Positions 24,137 through 41,910 of a stretch of 64,000 nucleotides of DNA are shown here, in pieces. The notes beneath the pieces were generated by a model, which was given only the letters and a program-made list of their open reading frames with translations, was not told the origin of the DNA and did no database searches. The number at the start of each line of letters is the position of its first letter. Position 1 is the stretch's first letter. The translations under genes were made by a program, and so were the position numbers. Source of the DNA: Intestinibaculum porci (GTDB lineage Bacteria > Bacillota_I > Bacilli_A > Erysipelotrichales > Coprobacillaceae); the NCBI RefSeq assembly GCF_003925875.1, contig NZ_AP019309.1, forward strand, positions 806,001-870,000, written 5' to 3'.

Positions 24137-25894
24137 ATTCCCGGGTATAGTTTATAACTACACCTCATCTTCATGCCTTTTTAGGTGAAATTTTGGTACC
24201 CAATCACTGCCTCTTTTTGTGTATGAAAGTGGGCATGAAATATTAAACGCATTATAGATATCATTAGCTCTTTTTTGTGGCTCTTCAACTGAAGTGACTG
24301 TCTTGTAGACGAGGCACTTCTGATTTCTGAGTCCCATGAATATGCCTTCCTGGTTGGTTGCAGTTTTCTTTGTTTTCTTTTGGATATACACGTTAATGGT
24401 TGCCGCAATCATTGATAATAACAGGTGACCTCTTACTGCTTCTTCGCTATGAACGCGAAGTGGTGTCAGCTTAGATGATCCCTTGCTTAAATCAAAGTAC
24501 TGCTCAACCAGCTGTCTAGTATAGTAGGCAGGAAGCACTTCTTCAATTGGGAATGGAAGACTTGAAATCAGTACAAAATATCCCATTGATTCAAGCTTTT
24601 TTTGGATCTGCATAGTTGACATTTCTTTGCTCTTATTCAGACACTTATGTATTTCATGATCTACCTGATCTAGATCATATCCTAGAAAAGCATAAGCCTT
24701 ATGTCCATCACCAATGCTAACTTCGATCTGTTTGATATAGACGACTCTATCACTATATTTGACCATATTTCTTTCCTGCTTTAGTTCGGGACCGTATTTA
24801 TTGATCAAATCACGATATAGTCTATATTTCTCAGGCAGTCTCATCAGGAAATCGATGTTAGCTCGATAAAGCTCATTAATATCCTCAAGGGTATAATAAC
24901 CAGCATCACTAAGAATATAGTCTGTTTCAATATTGCCTAAATTATCAAGTACATTTACTGATCTGATCAGTGTATTCATATCAACGATATTGCCTGGAAT
25001 AATTCTAAACATTAGGGGATAGCCTGTATCTCTCTGAAGTGTTGTAATCATTCTAGCCTCATTGGAAACCTTCCCATTGTGGTTACTGATTGCAGTTAAT
25101 GGCATATGAATACTGTTAGGAAGCCCTGTGCTGTCAATGATTATAGCTTTATCAGACGAAATGTTTTCTTTGATCCACTTCATATGATTTTCAAAGAATT
25201 TAAGGACATTTTCTGATTTGCCAATTGATCTCATAAAGTCACTTATTCTCTGAGATGTGAGATTAGCCTTTGGATAAAGAATGCTTTCAAAGCTCCCTTC
25301 ATACCAGGTATTGGCATGACAGTTAGCAGCGTTGGAAATGACATAGTAGGCAACCATTGCATATAAGGTATCTTTGTTTTTATAGCTGATTTCATCAATG
25401 ACTTTGTCATATCCCATATGATGAATAAGCTGATCTACGAAGTAGGCATCGCCATAATCAAGAATAGTACGCTGTCTTTTGCGCTTATCAGGCTGAACAT
25501 CAGATACATAGGATTCATCAGCTTCACCGAATTCACCAGTTTCAGGATCATAGGTAAACATGCCTCTTTCTTTATTGAAAAAGATATTGTTTTCCTTATC
25601 GATAACCTTGCCTAAATGTTTAGCACCTTGCTTAACGATCTTGCCGTTTTTGCGGACTGATTTGCCAGGGATTTTAGCATAAAGTGTTCCATTAATTGTC
25701 TGATAACTGAGCTTCATATTAGCACCTCTTTTGCATGAGTAGTTATAAATCTAATTCTTTATAACTACATTATACTATATCGTGCTAATTATTTCAATGT
25801 AAAAATTCAATTTATAGTGATGTTAACAACATAATTCTATATATTAATCCATCTAGAAATCAGTGTAGTTAAAAACTGTTCTAGGGAATTCAAG
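24132..25894 (-). mobile_element. IS4/IS1634-type insertion sequence, copy 1
   Basis: 1763 bp. Both ends carry CTTGAATTCCC as outer inverted repeat, with weaker matching inward. A direct duplication TTTAA flanks it (24127-24131 and 25895-25899). One transposase gene on the minus strand. Same length as copy 2 at 40148-41910, with the same encoded protein. Confidence 0.9.
24158..25717 (-). CDS. DDE transposase, IS4/IS1634 type (copy 1)
   Basis: 519 residues. Catalytic acids as I read them: D in IIIDSTGLPN, D in YILSDAGYY, and E in YTRQLVEQYFDLSKGSSKL, the last being a YREK-like box of the IS4 superfamily. The N-terminal 60 residues (GKHLGKVIDKENNIFF) are the short basic domain usual in Firmicute IS1634-like transposases. 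AAGAGGTGC precedes the start. The family label is moderate confidence; that it is an IS transposase is certain. Identical to the protein at 40174-41733. Confidence 0.92.
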   Translation of the reverse strand: MKLSYQTINGTLYAKIPGKSVRKNGKIVKQGAKHLGKVIDKENNIFFNKERGMFTYDPETGEFGEADESYVSDVQPDKRKRQRTILDYGDAYFVDQLIHHMGYDKVIDEISYKNKDTLYAMVAYYVISNAANCHANTWYEGSFESILYPKANLTSQRISDFMRSIGKSENVLKFFENHMKWIKENISSDKAIIIDSTGLPNSIHMPLTAISNHNGKVSNEARMITTLQRDTGYPLMFRIIPGNIVDMNTLIRSVNVLDNLGNIETDYILSDAGYYTLEDINELYRANIDFLMRLPEKYRLYRDLINKYGPELKQERNMVKYSDRVVYIKQIEVSIGDGHKAYAFLGYDLDQVDHEIHKCLNKSKEMSTMQIQKKLESMGYFVLISSLPFPIEEVLPAYYTRQLVEQYFDLSKGSSKLTPLRVHSEEAVRGHLLLSMIAATINVYIQKKTKKTATNQEGIFMGLRNQKCLVYKTVTSVEEPQKRANDIYNAFNISCPLSYTKRGSDWVPKFHLKRHEDEV

Positions 25895-31887: not shown

Positions 31888-32649
31888 ATGAAACTAAAAA
31901 GAGATTTTAATTATGCTTTGCCTTATGCCTTACACGATGCCTACATCAGCAATATGCATTATCATCAAGGCACTTTAACCTTAGATTTTGATCAGGGATT
32001 CTATGATATTGGTCGCGACTGTGCCGTTGGCGGTTCCGTCTACTTTGATTCCATTGATCCTGCTTTTAGTGAAGTATTGGTGTATAAACGTAAAGGCAAT
32101 AAAGTCAAAGGAAAAGTCATGAGCTTAAAGAAATTCATCAAGAAGTATGGTGAAGAAGAACTGCAGTTAATCGATGAGTACTATGATGACGATTCCGCAA
32201 AATATGGCGGTACCATCTTATGTGATGATGACGTGCTCTATTTTGAAATGAATATCATTATCTTAGGGGATATGTATTACCTTCTTGATGCCAATGACCT
32301 AGATGAAGAAGAGGATTCAGAAGAAGGCCAAGATGATGAAGTTGAAGAAGATGAAAATAATGAAGATGCTGATGATGACGAAGAAGACGATGATGTTGCA
32401 GAAACATTAGAAGACATCGAAGAAGCCCTCGATCATTTAGAAAAGAAAGAGCTGCCATGGGCAGAACGTGTGCTCGTTAAAAATACTACCTTTGAACAGC
32501 GTCGTAAGATCGTTGAAGATTCTTTAGGCGGTGATGTCACTTGTGCTGGTGATGATGTTATTGCGGAAATGTATAATGACTACATTGATGGTAAAATTGA
32601 ATTAGCGGATATCAACCGTGAATATATGAAAATGATGGGTGGAGAATAA
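31888..32649 (+). CDS. Acidic cytosolic protein of unknown function
   Basis: 253 residues, not recognised. Residues 1-130 look globular (ALHDAYISNMHYHQGTLTLDFDQGFYDI). Residues about 138-178 are almost all Asp/Glu (DEEEDSEEGQDDEVEEDEN onward), and the end is helical. No signal peptide or membrane segment. AAGGAGATAT precedes the start. It is the last gene of the peptidase-methyltransferase-acyP-dgkA run, before a terminator. The acidic linker could mimic nucleic acid, but nothing shows that. Confidence 0.7.
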   Translation: MKLKRDFNYALPYALHDAYISNMHYHQGTLTLDFDQGFYDIGRDCAVGGSVYFDSIDPAFSEVLVYKRKGNKVKGKVMSLKKFIKKYGEEELQLIDEYYDDDSAKYGGTILCDDDVLYFEMNIIILGDMYYLLDANDLDEEEDSEEGQDDEVEEDENNEDADDDEEDDDVAETLEDIEEALDHLEKKELPWAERVLVKNTTFEQRRKIVEDSLGGDVTCAGDDVIAEMYNDYIDGKIELADINREYMKMMGGE

Positions 32650-32674
32650 GAACCTGACATATATTATTTTTGAT

Positions 32675-32690
32675 AAAGTCAGATGACTTT
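32675..32690. promoter_or_regulatory. 16-bp palindrome upstream of the Abi gene
   Basis: AAAGTCA-GA-TGACTTT is a perfect dyad 77 bases before the Abi_2 start. Possible operator; no promoter identified with it. Confidence 0.4.
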
Positions 32691-32694
32691 GTGA

Positions 32695-32721
32695 AAGACT
32701 ACGATTTTCGTGGTCTTTTTC
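32695..32721 (+). terminator. Terminator before the Abi gene
   Basis: AAGACTACGA/TCGTGGTCTT (one G-T) with TTT loop, then TTTTCTTT. It separates the dgkA operon from the Abi locus. Confidence 0.85.
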
Positions 32722-32766
32722 TTTACCTTTTTTGATCTCATTAATGTGTTTGTGAAAGGAGCGTTT

Positions 32767-33720
32767 ATGATTGATCAGAAGAAACACTTATTAACGATCG
32801 GAAAACAGATTGAACACTTAAAAAGCAAAGGCATTGCTTTTGACTTAGTCAGTGAAAAGGATGCCTTTTCCTATCTCCAAAATGAGAGTCATTTCTTTAA
32901 ACTCATCGCTTATCGTAAAAATTATCAGAAATATGAATATGGGGATCATGCCGGTCAGTACATTCATTTAGAATTTGGTGACTTGGAAGATTTAACAGAA
33001 ATTGATCGTTTCTTAAGAAGTGTCTTATTACAGTTATCTTTAGATGTTGAATACTACGCTAAGATGAAGATCCTCACAGTCATTGAAGAACATCACGAAG
33101 ATGGCTATCAGATTGTGGTAGATTTCATGGATTATCTGAAAGATGTCAATAAATATGGCAAAGTAAACGAATTTGAAAGATGTAAGAATGATCTGGAACG
33201 TAACCGTACATCTCCTTATTGTGGAGAGTTAGTGAAAAAGTATTCTCCAAATTATCCTGTATGGGTCTTTATGGAAATCGTTCCCTTTGGTAGAACAATT
33301 TCTTTCTACAAATTCTGCGGGGATCGCTATCATGATCGAGAGATGATTAGGGAACATTATTTATTAAAGACGTGTAAAGACATTCGTAATGCCGCTGCTC
33401 ATAATAACTGTATTTTAAATGATCTTCATTTGCATACGGCTAAATATAGGGTGAATCCATTAGTAGCCCAAGTGCTATGTCAGATTCCCACTATTTCCAA
33501 GTCTTCAAGAAATAAACGTATGAGTAATATTCGCTTACAGCAGATTGTTTCCTTACTTTACATGCATAACAAGATTGTGACAAGTGAAAAAGTGCATCAG
33601 GCGGCTTCATTATTATTACATGCGCTTGATCAGAGATTCTTTATCCATGATTATCACAATAATTCTTTGATTTATGAATCCTTTGTATTTCTTCATAAAA
33701 TTATCGATTGGTGGTTTTAA
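32767..33720 (+). CDS. Abi_2-family (AbiD/AbiF-like) HEPN protein, predicted RNase toxin
   Basis: 317 residues. Family features in order: the N-terminal KQIEHLKSKGIAFDLVSEKDAFSYLQNESHFFKLIAYR block, LRSVLLQLSLDVEYYAKMKI, PVWVFMEIVPFGRTISFYKF, and a HEPN-type RNase motif DIRNAAAHNNCIL (R207 and H212, R-x4-H with N next to R). Abi_2 proteins give abortive phage infection, and HEPN pairs usually cut RNA. The start has AAAGGAG six bases upstream; a terminator lies between it and the previous operon. Two small RNA genes follow within 350 bases, so I read this as the toxin of a possible protein-RNA pair. The family is clear; RNase activity and the RNA link are inference. Confidence 0.88.
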   Translation: MIDQKKHLLTIGKQIEHLKSKGIAFDLVSEKDAFSYLQNESHFFKLIAYRKNYQKYEYGDHAGQYIHLEFGDLEDLTEIDRFLRSVLLQLSLDVEYYAKMKILTVIEEHHEDGYQIVVDFMDYLKDVNKYGKVNEFERCKNDLERNRTSPYCGELVKKYSPNYPVWVFMEIVPFGRTISFYKFCGDRYHDREMIREHYLLKTCKDIRNAAAHNNCILNDLHLHTAKYRVNPLVAQVLCQIPTISKSSRNKRMSNIRLQQIVSLLYMHNKIVTSEKVHQAASLLLHALDQRFFIHDYHNNSLIYESFVFLHKIIDWWF

Positions 33721-33728
33721 AAAATGAA

Positions 33729-33788
33729 TTGACGATTGATAACTAAGAAATTTTGACGAGCAACGGCTGGGCTCTCATTTTTTCATTA
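33729..33788 (+). other. Degenerate third small-RNA unit or Abi terminator
   Basis: After TTGACG (33729-33734), the segment CAACGGCTGGGCTCTCATTTTTT aligns by eye with the terminator half of the two RNA genes (TAACGTCTGGCTCTAATTTTTT). The first hairpin and a usable -10 are missing. GAGC/GCTC and a T-run may still terminate the Abi mRNA. Confidence 0.45.
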
Positions 33789-33793
33789 CGTCA

Positions 33794-33822
33794 TTGACAA
33801 TGATAAAGTGATCAGGTAAAAT
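33794..33822 (+). promoter_or_regulatory. Promoter of small RNA gene A
   Basis: TTGACA (33794-33799), a 17-base spacer, TAAAAT (33817-33822). Confidence 0.85.
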
Positions 33823-33828
33823 TTAGTC

Positions 33829-33890
33829 GCACAAAAAAACATATTTATGTTTTATAAGGGCCGGAGTAACGTCTGGCTCTAATTTTTTAT
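33829..33890 (+). ncRNA. Small structured RNA A downstream of the Abi gene
   Basis: A predicted RNA of about 60 bases. Hairpin 1: AAAACAT/ATGTTTT with ATTT loop (33836-33853). Hairpin 2: AGGGCCGGA/TCTGGCTCT with loop GTAACG (33857-33880), two G-T pairs, then six T, a terminator. It has its own consensus promoter and no reading frame. A near-identical copy follows 178 bp on. Candidate RNA partner (antitoxin or guide-like) of the Abi_2 protein. Confidence 0.75.
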
Positions 33891-33910
33891 TTAAAGAAAA
33901 GGAAAATTGA

Positions 33911-33943
33911 TTTTTCACAAGTGACTTGAGAATGAATAACTGC
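33911..33943 (+). repeat. Conserved tail after RNA gene A
   Basis: A stretch including ACAAGTGACTTGAG and GAATGAATAACTGC recurs after RNA gene B (34091-34133). CAAGT-G-ACTTG is a dyad. The tail lies after the terminator, so it is outside the predicted RNA. Confidence 0.6.
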
Positions 33944-33971
33944 AGGTAAGGTGTATTTTTTCTTTACACTA

Positions 33972-34000
33972 TTGACAATTGAAAATAAATTATGTATATT
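33972..34000 (+). promoter_or_regulatory. Promoter of small RNA gene B
   Basis: TTGACA (33972-33977), a 17-base spacer, TATATT (33995-34000). Confidence 0.85.
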
Positions 34001-34006
34001 TTATCC

Positions 34007-34068
34007 AGACAACAAAACATATTTATGTTTTACAAGGGCCGGAGTAACGTCTGGCTCTAATTTTTTAT
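34007..34068 (+). ncRNA. Small structured RNA B downstream of the Abi gene
   Basis: Copy of RNA A. Hairpin 1 (34014-34031) and hairpin 2 with terminator (34035-34066) are base-for-base the same. The linker is ACAA rather than ATAA, and the first dozen bases differ. The -10-to-hairpin distance is 13 bases in both. Promoter spacers differ freely, so the RNA body is what selection has kept. Confidence 0.75.
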
Positions 34069-34090
34069 TTAATAGAAAAGGAAGTTTAAT

Positions 34091-34133
34091 TTTTACAAGT
34101 GACTCGGAGTGACTCGGGGAATGAATAACTGCT
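34091..34133 (+). repeat. Conserved tail after RNA gene B
   Basis: Same tail as after RNA A, but with an internal duplication (GTGACTCGGA then GTGACTCGGG) before GAATGAATAACTGC. Confidence 0.6.
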
Positions 34134-34161
34134 TGTCAAGAGACTAGTAATGAATTATAAT
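34133..34161 (+). promoter_or_regulatory. Promoter of pheST
   Basis: TTGTCA (34133-34138), a 17-base spacer, TATAAT (34156-34161). Confidence 0.8.
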
Positions 34162-34167
34162 ACGAGT

Positions 34168-34380
34168 AACACAACGATAAGGACTAGTACATAACAGAAA
34201 GTATCAGAGAGGAAGAGAAGGGTGTGAATCTTCTTGCGGCATGTTATGGAATTCACCTTGGAGTGCGGTTAATCCCCGCCGTAGAACTACGTTACAGTGA
34301 ATTAAGGGCATAGAGATTCTCTATGAATTAGGATGGTACCGCGATTATGTCGTTCCTAAATGGAACGACTTTTTATTTTG
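34168..34380 (+). ncRNA. T-box leader (tRNA-Phe sensing)
   Basis: Senses uncharged tRNA-Phe and controls pheST by antitermination. Visible parts: stem I with AGTA and GAGAGGAAGAGAAGGGTGTGA-type motifs, a candidate TTC specifier at 34231-34233, the T-box AGGATGGTACCGCG (34330-34343), and the terminator GTCGTTCC/GGAACGAC (34349-34369) with T-run. The specifier agrees with the downstream phenylalanyl-tRNA synthetase genes. Confidence 0.93.
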
Positions 34381-40147: not shown

Positions 40148-41910
40148 CTTGAATTCCCGGGTATAGTTTATAACTACACCTCATCTTCATGCCTTTTTAG
40201 GTGAAATTTTGGTACCCAATCACTGCCTCTTTTTGTGTATGAAAGTGGGCATGAAATATTAAACGCATTATAGATATCATTAGCTCTTTTTTGTGGCTCT
40301 TCAACTGAAGTGACTGTCTTGTAGACGAGGCACTTCTGATTTCTGAGTCCCATGAATATGCCTTCCTGGTTGGTTGCAGTTTTCTTTGTTTTCTTTTGGA
40401 TATACACGTTAATGGTTGCCGCAATCATTGATAATAACAGGTGACCTCTTACTGCTTCTTCGCTATGAACGCGAAGTGGTGTCAGCTTAGATGATCCCTT
40501 GCTTAAATCAAAGTACTGCTCAACCAGCTGTCTAGTATAGTAGGCAGGAAGCACTTCTTCAATTGGGAATGGAAGACTTGAAATCAGTACAAAATATCCC
40601 ATTGATTCAAGCTTTTTTTGGATCTGCATAGTTGACATTTCTTTGCTCTTATTCAGACACTTATGTATTTCATGATCTACCTGATCTAGATCATATCCTA
40701 GAAAAGCATAAGCCTTATGTCCATCACCAATGCTAACTTCGATCTGTTTGATATAGACGACTCTATCACTATATTTGACCATATTTCTTTCCTGCTTTAG
40801 TTCGGGACCGTATTTATTGATCAAATCACGATATAGTCTATATTTCTCAGGCAGTCTCATCAGGAAATCGATGTTAGCTCGATAAAGCTCATTAATATCC
40901 TCAAGGGTATAATAACCAGCATCACTAAGAATATAGTCTGTTTCAATATTGCCTAAATTATCAAGTACATTTACTGATCTGATCAGTGTATTCATATCAA
41001 CGATATTGCCTGGAATAATTCTAAACATTAGGGGATAGCCTGTATCTCTCTGAAGTGTTGTAATCATTCTAGCCTCATTGGAAACCTTCCCATTGTGGTT
41101 ACTGATTGCAGTTAATGGCATATGAATACTGTTAGGAAGCCCTGTGCTGTCAATGATTATAGCTTTATCAGACGAAATGTTTTCTTTGATCCACTTCATA
41201 TGATTTTCAAAGAATTTAAGGACATTTTCTGATTTGCCAATTGATCTCATAAAGTCACTTATTCTCTGAGATGTGAGATTAGCCTTTGGATAAAGAATGC
41301 TTTCAAAGCTCCCTTCATACCAGGTATTGGCATGACAGTTAGCAGCGTTGGAAATGACATAGTAGGCAACCATTGCATATAAGGTATCTTTGTTTTTATA
41401 GCTGATTTCATCAATGACTTTGTCATATCCCATATGATGAATAAGCTGATCTACGAAGTAGGCATCGCCATAATCAAGAATAGTACGCTGTCTTTTGCGC
41501 TTATCAGGCTGAACATCAGATACATAGGATTCATCAGCTTCACCGAATTCACCAGTTTCAGGATCATAGGTAAACATGCCTCTTTCTTTATTGAAAAAGA
41601 TATTGTTTTCCTTATCGATAACCTTGCCTAAATGTTTAGCACCTTGCTTAACGATCTTGCCGTTTTTGCGGACTGATTTGCCAGGGATTTTAGCATAAAG
41701 TGTTCCATTAATTGTCTGATAACTGAGCTTCATATTAGCACCTCTTTTGCATGAGTAGTTATAAATCTAATTCTTTATAACTACATTATACTATATCGTG
41801 CTAATTATTTCAATGTAAAAATTCAATTTATAGTGATGTTAACAACATAATTCTATATATTAATCCATCTAGAAATCAGTGTAGTTAAAAACTGTTCTAG
41901 GGAATTCAAG
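40148..41910 (-). mobile_element. IS4/IS1634-type insertion sequence, copy 2
   Basis: 1763 bp, same ends as copy 1 (CTTGAATTCCC outer repeats), flanked by ATAAT (40143-40147 and 41911-41915). It splits the dyad ATCTCAG-N9-CTGAGAT located upstream of the recombinase genes. Confidence 0.92.
40174..41733 (-). CDS. DDE transposase, IS4/IS1634 type (copy 2)
   Basis: 519 residues, the same protein as at 24158-25717: catalytic acids in IIIDSTGLPN, ILSDAGYY and LVEQYFDLSK. An identical sequence means the two copies spread recently. No damage seen. Confidence 0.92.
   Translation of the reverse strand: MKLSYQTINGTLYAKIPGKSVRKNGKIVKQGAKHLGKVIDKENNIFFNKERGMFTYDPETGEFGEADESYVSDVQPDKRKRQRTILDYGDAYFVDQLIHHMGYDKVIDEISYKNKDTLYAMVAYYVISNAANCHANTWYEGSFESILYPKANLTSQRISDFMRSIGKSENVLKFFENHMKWIKENISSDKAIIIDSTGLPNSIHMPLTAISNHNGKVSNEARMITTLQRDTGYPLMFRIIPGNIVDMNTLIRSVNVLDNLGNIETDYILSDAGYYTLEDINELYRANIDFLMRLPEKYRLYRDLINKYGPELKQERNMVKYSDRVVYIKQIEVSIGDGHKAYAFLGYDLDQVDHEIHKCLNKSKEMSTMQIQKKLESMGYFVLISSLPFPIEEVLPAYYTRQLVEQYFDLSKGSSKLTPLRVHSEEAVRGHLLLSMIAATINVYIQKKTKKTATNQEGIFMGLRNQKCLVYKTVTSVEEPQKRANDIYNAFNISCPLSYTKRGSDWVPKFHLKRHEDEV

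Follow-up and report, generated by a model that had tools for sequence, protein, structure and literature searches.

Introduction

In the literature covered here, only two pairs of an AbiF-type toxin and its RNA antitoxin are described in detail: PbAbiF with the RNA AbiFr, and AbiF-Cd of C. difficile prophages with the RNA RCd22 of Rfam family RF03085, which lies upstream of its toxin gene. We compare with these pairs a locus within a 64,000-nucleotide stretch of the genome of Intestinibaculum porci (NCBI RefSeq assembly GCF_003925875.1, contig NZ_AP019309.1, positions 806,001 to 870,000 of the forward strand), hereafter called the window, in which a gene for an Abi_2 protein is followed by two small units, each consisting of a promoter, a candidate RNA and a terminator. 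The host genome has a size of 3.2 Mb and is present as a single contig. A first-pass annotation, made from the letters of the window, had proposed that the gene and the two units form a protein-RNA toxin system in which the RNAs neutralise or guide the protein. Our reading, to which we give a probability of roughly 0.78, is that the window locus is an AbiD/AbiF-type RNA-antitoxin system, and a variant whose RNA family is absent from Rfam. That an AbiF-type toxin can have an RNA antitoxin is already in print; the RNA described here has no match in Rfam 15 at cut-off.

The accounts of published systems that follow are those given in the covered parts of the cited articles. PbAbiF-AbiFr (structure 8vz6; Zilberzwige-Tal et al. 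2025, as reported in PMC12737573 and PMC12373285) is described as a dimer of a HEPN Abi protein carrying one structured noncoding RNA (ncRNA) per monomer, with the RNA as antitoxin. The window protein has the same fold, and we liken the window pair to this complex; for PbAbiF, inhibition is attributed to a bulge in the RNA (PMC12737573). AbiF-Cd is reported to be toxic and to be bound and neutralised by RCd22, in cis as well as in trans, and its toxicity is lost when R202 and H207, the residues aligned with PbAbiF R210 and H215, are changed (PMC12373285). Here too, an Abi_2 toxin gene adjoins a sigma-A driven ncRNA with a terminator, but RCd22 is placed upstream as a 5' leader with two abiF motifs, whereas the window RNAs lie downstream (PMC12373285); in addition, the covariance model R1 described below gives no match at the phiC2 locus, and the proteins of the two types stand across a 100/100 branch of our tree. 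Both studied AbiF proteins are inhibited by their RNA (PMC12373285, PMC12737573), and the AbiF systems studied so far are described as non-guided toxin-antitoxin systems (PMC12737573).

AbiD/F proteins have been placed with the Cas13an HEPN domains (PMC12165695) and suggested to have given rise to Cas13 (PMC12165695, PMC12737573). CRISPR-Cas13 (type VI) is related in its HEPN fold, as proposed in print, and has an RNA partner with a hairpin. Cas13 combines two HEPN domains in a single protein with a repeat-spacer array, whereas the window protein has 317 aa and one HEPN motif, and its locus contains neither an array nor a spacer. The lactococcal AbiD, AbiD1 and AbiF have the Pfam domain and the PADLOC AbiD model in common with the window protein, but the control of AbiD1 is described as acting through its 5' untranslated region (PMC12373285). 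The type III toxin-antitoxin system ToxIN also sets an RNA antitoxin against an RNase toxin. The fold of the ToxIN toxin is unrelated to the HEPN Abi fold. In ToxIN the toxin gene is preceded by a repeat array (PMC12373285), whereas the window has two units, each with its own promoter and terminator, downstream of the gene.

Results

The window gene and the two RNA units behind it

The elements of the locus, in window coordinates, are the following.

32767..33720, plus strand: Abi_2 (AbiD/AbiF-type HEPN) gene for a putative toxin of 317 aa, ATG at 32767 and stop at 33720 (Pfam, PADLOC, AlphaFold2 model)
33385..33402, plus strand: HEPN R-x4-H motif RNAAAH (R207, H212; both invariant in 12 aligned relatives)
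33697..33720, plus strand: 3' end of the gene (KIIDWWF*), the site of the embedded -35 box in relatives (sequence, comparison with relatives)
~33741..33786, plus strand: possible decayed unit 0 directly behind the stop codon, where the RNA usually lies (weak; by eye and R1)
33794..33822, plus strand: promoter of RNA unit 1, TTGACA-17-TAAAAT (11/12 consensus matches)
33829..33888, plus strand: RNA unit 1, with hairpin 1 (33836-33853), linker, terminator hairpin (33857-33880) and T-run (start predicted from the -10 box)
33972..34000, plus strand: promoter of RNA unit 2, TTGACA-17-TATATT (11/12 consensus matches)
34007..34066, plus strand: RNA unit 2, with hairpin 1 (34014-34031), linker, terminator hairpin (34035-34058) and T-run (start predicted)

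The window protein matches PF07751 (Abi_2) with 78.2 bits (E 1.3e-21, cut-off 25.6) and the PADLOC AbiD model with E 2.8e-21; the R-x4-H motif, already read in the first-pass annotation, occurs once in it in the 12-sequence alignment. No NCBIfam match up to E 1 was obtained for this protein or for the protein of locus L003, a paralog in the same genome. An AlphaFold2 model built from the 12-row alignment reached a mean confidence (pLDDT) of 91.8, and the sole match of this model in the PDB at E ≤ 0.001 by Foldseek was 8vz6, the PbAbiF dimer with its ncRNA (E 1.6e-4), with a structural alignment of Z 16.1 over 268 residues. The 12-row profile also reaches 8vz6 by hmmsearch (E 7.2e-5); phmmer with the single window protein gave no match in the PDB.

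Behind the gene lie two direct copies of 150 nt, 81% identical without gaps and 178 nt apart. The promoter-RNA-terminator architecture of each, including the 13 bases between the -10 box and hairpin 1 (AAAACAT/ATGTTTT), agrees with the earlier description, except that the linker, given there as four bases, counts three (ATA/ACA) if the terminator stem begins at its A. The claim that the RNA bodies are alike while the promoter spacers have drifted holds: the units are identical at 18/18 positions of hairpin 1, 34/34 of the terminator and T-run and 2/3 of the linker, as compared with 9/17 in the promoter spacer, 8/13 in the leader and 13/30 in the 5' flank. When folded, both RNAs (62 and 64 nt) beat 200/200 shuffles, with z-scores of -4.96 for unit 1 and -4.53 for unit 2. 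In a search of the window, R1 finds unit 1 at 33828-33891 (48.3 bits, E 1.4e-8) and unit 2 at 34006-34069 (40.7 bits, E 7.5e-7), the next best match having E 0.026, and upstream of the gene (32500-32766) there is no R1 match better than E 0.11. The promoters of the two units resemble abi 3' ends (VIDN... and TIDN*); that they are relics of such ends is only a suggestion, because a 17-base spacer before a -10 box starting with TAA forces the in-frame stop of unit 1. A third functional RNA at unit 0 is unsupported, as R1 gives merely 8.3 bits there (E 0.41 in 1.7 kb).

A structured RNA family at the 3' ends of related genes

A scan of GTDB genome contigs with the 12-protein alignment yielded 263 relatives, and the analysis continued with the best 80; a scan of viral contigs gave 32 loci, and a survey of 315 genomes of the order found 14 with a relative of the gene at E ≤ 1e-8. 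Of the 80 loci, 71 yielded an RNA sequence; 57 of these were non-redundant, and 42 were aligned (alignment A4). RNAalifold missed hairpin 1 on A4 because the linker lengths vary by one base, and we therefore used a seed (A5) of 17 rows with equal linker length and a structure given by hand. None of these rows comes from the genome of the window, and they are the basis of R1; R2 is a wider covariance model.

Nearly throughout, the 3' ends of the relatives present the same anatomy: an A-tract/T-tract hairpin comes first, then a short linker, for which GTA, GCA and GC are the commonest sequences, a GC-rich hairpin and a T-run. A strict two-hairpin detector recognised 68/80 abi ends, against 5/337 ends of other open reading frames (ORFs) in the same loci and 0/80 block shuffles. 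The covariance-model search proposed in the first-pass annotation gave a positive answer: R1, built from other genomes, finds both window units and, for 57 of the 63 relatives outside the seed, has a match at E ≤ 0.03 at the gene's 3' end; some of these 57 nearly duplicate one another or a row of the seed. The remaining six (L079, L100, L101, L114, L116, L117) have both hairpins by eye, with R2 E-values from 2.5e-5 to 0.21. The viral loci contain an R1 match at E ≤ 0.03 in 26 of 32 cases. In a joint R1 search of 94 loci comprising 564 kb, all 93 matches at E ≤ 0.03 were located at or behind abi 3' ends, it being noted that L159 had been fetched by the RNA itself, that the window had been chosen for its RNA, and that 17 of the loci are the seed rows.

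The two hairpins are conserved as structures. In the 17-row seed, 95.6% of the cells are paired, and 60 double-change cells were counted as compared with 16.2 in shuffles; in 93 rows, 96.5% of the cells are paired, and the double-change cells number 415, where shuffles gave 109 and slid structures 22-38. Among 92 rows, 90, 92 and 91 have A-U at the three outer pairs of hairpin 1, and the inner pairs vary freely with pairing kept. Across genomes, the leader, the loops and the paired letters are the variable parts of the RNA; a nucleotide search in 43 genomes of the family found the RNA in its own genome only, and an exact pattern had no match in the viral contigs.

No match to the RNA was found in Rfam 15 at cut-off; NsiR8, STnc430, GcvB and others appeared below it and are taken as chance. 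Our literature searches returned no title announcing a downstream RNA of this form; the AbiF-Cas13 paper of Zilberzwige-Tal et al. and the one that defined RF03085 lay outside them, and an earlier description there is possible.

A promoter that lies in the abi gene and belongs to the RNA

At 64 of the 80 abi ends there is a promoter with at least 10 of 12 consensus matches, in contrast to 13/353 ends of other ORFs and 37/1600 mononucleotide shuffles. With a looser cut of 8/12, a promoter is present at 76/80 abi ends, and in 69 of these its -35 box starts before the stop codon; among the 69, the reading frame is xTT GAC Axx in 62. The -10 box overlaps the stop codon in 37. Codon usage is skewed at this point: in 65 genes with an I/V/L/F-Asp pair in their last codons, the Asp codon under the -35 box is GAC in 58 and GAT in 7, as against 396 GAC and 1024 GAT elsewhere in the same genes (Fisher 7e-24, a value that is too small because the rows are related).

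A promoter score of at least 9.5 was obtained for 54 of 65 RNA rows. In these 54, the distance from the -10 box to hairpin 1 is 13 nt in 41, 14 nt in 10 and 11-12 nt in 3 (standard deviation 0.59), whereas that from the stop codon to the hairpin, 14-26 nt in many relatives, has a standard deviation of 21.8. Furthermore, 48/52 rows with a near RNA have TTGAC within the final 45 nt of the gene, but only 2/13 whose RNA is more than 35 nt away do so; seven of these 13 have a good promoter of their own, and five of the seven lack TTGAC in the gene. The constant distance to the hairpin and the tracking of TTGAC with a near RNA therefore indicate that the promoter belongs to the RNA and moves with it. 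The window gene ends in ATC GAT TGG TGG TTT TAA, without TTGAC, so that the embedded -35 box is missing; TTGAC is likewise absent from the gene end of L003, and the RNAs of both loci carry their own promoters.

RNAs with and without an Abi_2 gene

In the 315 genomes of the order, R1 found 13 places at 35 bits or more. Seven of them, three in the genome of the window itself, are beside an intact Abi_2 gene, one (G213) is beside a remnant found by tblastn, and one (G031) is beside a remnant seen by eye; hits between 28 and 35 bits look mostly like chance terminators. In 392 genomes sampled from the phylum, R2 at E ≤ 1e-4 found six places in five genomes, four beside intact genes and two (G031, G471) where tblastn found no gene and the promoter lies, by eye, in an abi-like end. 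Among the 80 relatives, no abi gene without the RNA was seen. RNAs without an intact gene occur at L168, L169 and, as a second copy behind a leftover abi 3' end, L120; L118 has two RNAs in tandem. The first-pass annotation had tied its proposal to the RNA not being widespread away from Abi_2 neighbours, and on this point the outcome is divided: four of the 13 places in the order have no such gene or remnant within flanks of ~1.5 kb, but the RNA is not widespread (5/392 genomes of the phylum), 7/13 places adjoin an intact gene, and the gene lacks the RNA in 0/80.

A search of the host genome at the DNA level with the RNA unit revealed a third copy at 3056998-3057040 (E 6.6e-8; next match 0.03). 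It lies 3' of L003, the other intact close Abi_2 paralog (49% identical), with its own promoter by eye, and its hairpin 1 reads AAAACGA/TCGTTTT instead of AAAACAT/ATGTTTT, a compensated change. R1 recognises three places across the whole genome (E 7.1e-7, 3.7e-5 and 3.3e-4; next 0.51), all beside Abi_2 genes.

Some further observations concern RNAs and Abi_2 remnants. Strong R1 matches are present at L165, L167 and L172 (55.3, 46.4 and 36.2 bits) with no Abi_2 gene found in the flanks examined; the RNA of L167 adjoins an ORF that reads as integrase-like. In the host genome, L006 (591031-591550) is a broken, truncated abi copy, which shares 90% identity with the window gene over 125 residues and 76% over the 45 that follow, and neither R1 nor R2 found an RNA behind it; it sits 5' of a T-box leader, and the window gene likewise sits 5' of another one. 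At L007 (1379-1442, minus strand, ~510.6 kb of the same genome), a two-hairpin RNA (R2 E 0.0038), absent from the matches listed in the whole-genome R2 search, is beside an Abi_2 fragment that shares 88% identity with the L030 gene over 68 residues. About 2 kb from this fragment, L018 (1501-1548; genome positions 508782-508829) gives a sub-threshold RF03085 match (27.3 bits, cut-off 37), with a further similar stretch near 1610 by eye.

Upstream and downstream RNAs on two sides of the protein tree

The genome of the window also encodes an intact AbiF-like protein of another type at L001. As a single query this protein found no viral relatives, and phage records were therefore used for its relatives. 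Of 75 records that matched, eight loci were fetched, and all eight have, by eye, a promoter, a structured stretch and a terminator upstream of the gene. The phiC2 locus matches RF03085 narrowly (37.6 bits, cut-off 37), and the other seven do not match; R1 gives nothing better than E 0.59 in the eight loci and L001. In a tree of 58 proteins, the eight phage proteins and L001 are separated from the rest by the 100/100 branch, with long branches flagged. L001 itself shows no clear upstream RNA. Downstream of its intact gene, at 2409-2575, there are a promoter-like pair and a structured-looking stretch that matches neither Rfam nor R1; the genome may thus contain Abi-linked RNA of a third type. 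At L005 (1315-1380), a hairpin-rich stretch with a T-run lies directly upstream of a broken Abi_2 gene, a layout resembling that of the phage AbiF upstream RNAs.

Loci L152-L155, from phages and plasmids of Bacilli, fall on the downstream-RNA side of the tree. By eye, boxes resembling a promoter occur there at the end of the gene or shortly behind it, together with double hairpins of a looser kind. R1 and R2 miss these loci, and the reach of the family into Bacilli is therefore unproven. In the faecal phage record L188 (MT835668.1), nearly identical RNA-like stretches are present on both sides of one abi gene.

As to the surroundings in the window, the abi gene is flanked on one side by a 253-aa ORF without a Pfam match and on the other by a T-box leader (34165-34360), followed by an ORF named PheS-like from its sequence. 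Two 519-aa ORFs with identical translations (24158-25717 and 40174-41733) bracket the Abi region; the one scanned is a DDE transposase.

Discussion

Given the layout of the locus, the independent promoter of the RNA, its specific association with the gene and the homology to the two pairs already studied, an antitoxin role is by far the most likely one for the RNA, as judged from this comparative analysis. Of what the first-pass annotation had proposed, the pairing of protein and RNA stands, through the fold match to PbAbiF with its ncRNA, the tie of the RNA family to one clade, the covariation and the dedicated promoters; the guide role is unsupported, there being no spacer and the RNA bodies being constant. 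In the mechanism that we propose, the Abi_2 protein would be a dimeric HEPN RNase toxin, as its fold and motif suggest, and an RNA of ~60 nt, composed of a short A-rich leader, the A-tract/U-tract hairpin, a linker of 2-3 nt, the terminator hairpin and a U tail, would bind it and hold it inactive, by analogy with PbAbiF and AbiF-Cd. Transcription of the RNA is predicted to start at a sigma-A type promoter of its own and not to depend on the toxin mRNA. In most relatives this promoter lies in the last toxin codons, so that the toxin gene would carry the promoter of its antitoxin, whereas in the window, where the embedded promoter is missing, the antitoxin would come from the two downstream copies of promoter and RNA. 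If a phage or stress cut off the supply of RNA, an RNA of short life would fall away and release the RNase, as in the type III analogy. Neutralisation, release on infection and RNase activity are in this way properties that we infer for the window pair.

Several points weigh against this reading. The identity to PbAbiF is just 15% over the 268 structurally aligned residues. The RNA cannot be identified with the known abiF RNA, RF03085, which gives no match up to E 10 in 33700-34160 or up to E 5 in L003; in 195 genomes of the phylum RF03085 matched nowhere, not even in the controls, and that search carries no weight. The rows and the structure of the seed were picked by hand, the 415 double-change cells of the 93 rows lean towards the structure because that alignment was fitted to the model, and, as the rows are related, the Fisher and shuffle counts overstate independence. 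Four of the 13 strong hits in the order (G123, G177, G212, G274) have neither an Abi_2 gene nor a recognised remnant in flanks of ~1.5 kb. Finally, 11 of the 65 RNA rows lack a good sigma-70 promoter, nine of which we take, from their record names, to belong to the class Coriobacteriia, and six of the 13 distant RNAs are among these promoter-poor rows, so that for the distant RNAs the loss of the embedded -35 box is partly the loss of any consensus promoter.

The genomic facts would be identical if the RNA were not an inhibitor but a required cofactor or activator, that is, a scaffold that assembles the HEPN RNase or switches it on upon a phage signal; they do not set the sign of the effect, and the near-invariant outer A-U pairs of hairpin 1 fit any specific contact with a protein. 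We nevertheless consider an activator unlikely, given that the RNA inhibits in both AbiF proteins described in PMC12373285 and PMC12737573, and that the RNA has been seen without the gene but the gene without the RNA in 0/80 cases, which is the asymmetry expected of an antitoxin.

Quite improbable is the view that the hairpins are a mere transcription terminator and 3' end stabiliser of the abi mRNA. The second hairpin with its U-run is indeed terminator-like, and hairpin 1 begins just 14-26 nt past the stop codon in many relatives, but a terminator accounts neither for a dedicated promoter 13-14 nt ahead of the hairpin in 51/54 rows, wherever the RNA lies, nor for a covarying upstream hairpin with an invariant A-U base, nor for two separate complete units in the window and RNAs without an intact gene.

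A role as CRISPR RNA-like guide that steers the HEPN protein to target RNAs is very hard to maintain. It draws on the Cas13d chains, which rank behind PbAbiF in the structural comparison with Z-scores of 7.5 and below, of weak meaning for a helical protein, and on the placement of AbiD/F with Cas13an HEPN domains in PMC12165695. However, no repeat-spacer array is present behind the window gene, where the direct repeats are the two 150-nt copies and a 14-nt pair, the RNA body is constant between the units at 52/52 bases outside the 3-base linker, and AbiF is described in PMC12737573 as a non-guided toxin-antitoxin system. An unrelated small RNA family, selfish or regulatory, that merely tends to sit near abi genes would explain the copies without a gene (G123, G177, G212), but it is scarcely credible in view of an RNA promoter embedded in abi codons across the clade and of 93/93 matches at or behind abi 3' ends in 94 sources, 17 of them seed rows.

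The antitoxin reading has consequences for the wider family of Abi_2 toxins. In a second large branch, which extends over Bacillota, Actinomycetota and viral contigs, the genes have a covarying RNA family at their 3' end; this provides many natural toxin-RNA pairs to compare, and suggests that each branch may have its own kind of RNA partner. The presence of the antitoxin promoter in the toxin's own codons is, in our judgement, an unusual gene linkage, and the overlap predicts a primary 5' end of the RNA ~7 nt after the -10 box, near or just past the toxin stop codon. We lean slightly towards the view that Abi_2 HEPN toxins have at least two antitoxin RNA families in two layouts, the known 5' leader and an undescribed one in which the promoter lies over the last toxin codons, making the two genes hard to part, and that the invariant A-U base of hairpin 1, beside the U tail, could give a U.A-U triple helix or a signature read by the protein. 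If true, such a triple helix or signature would represent a novel means of keeping a HEPN RNase inactive.

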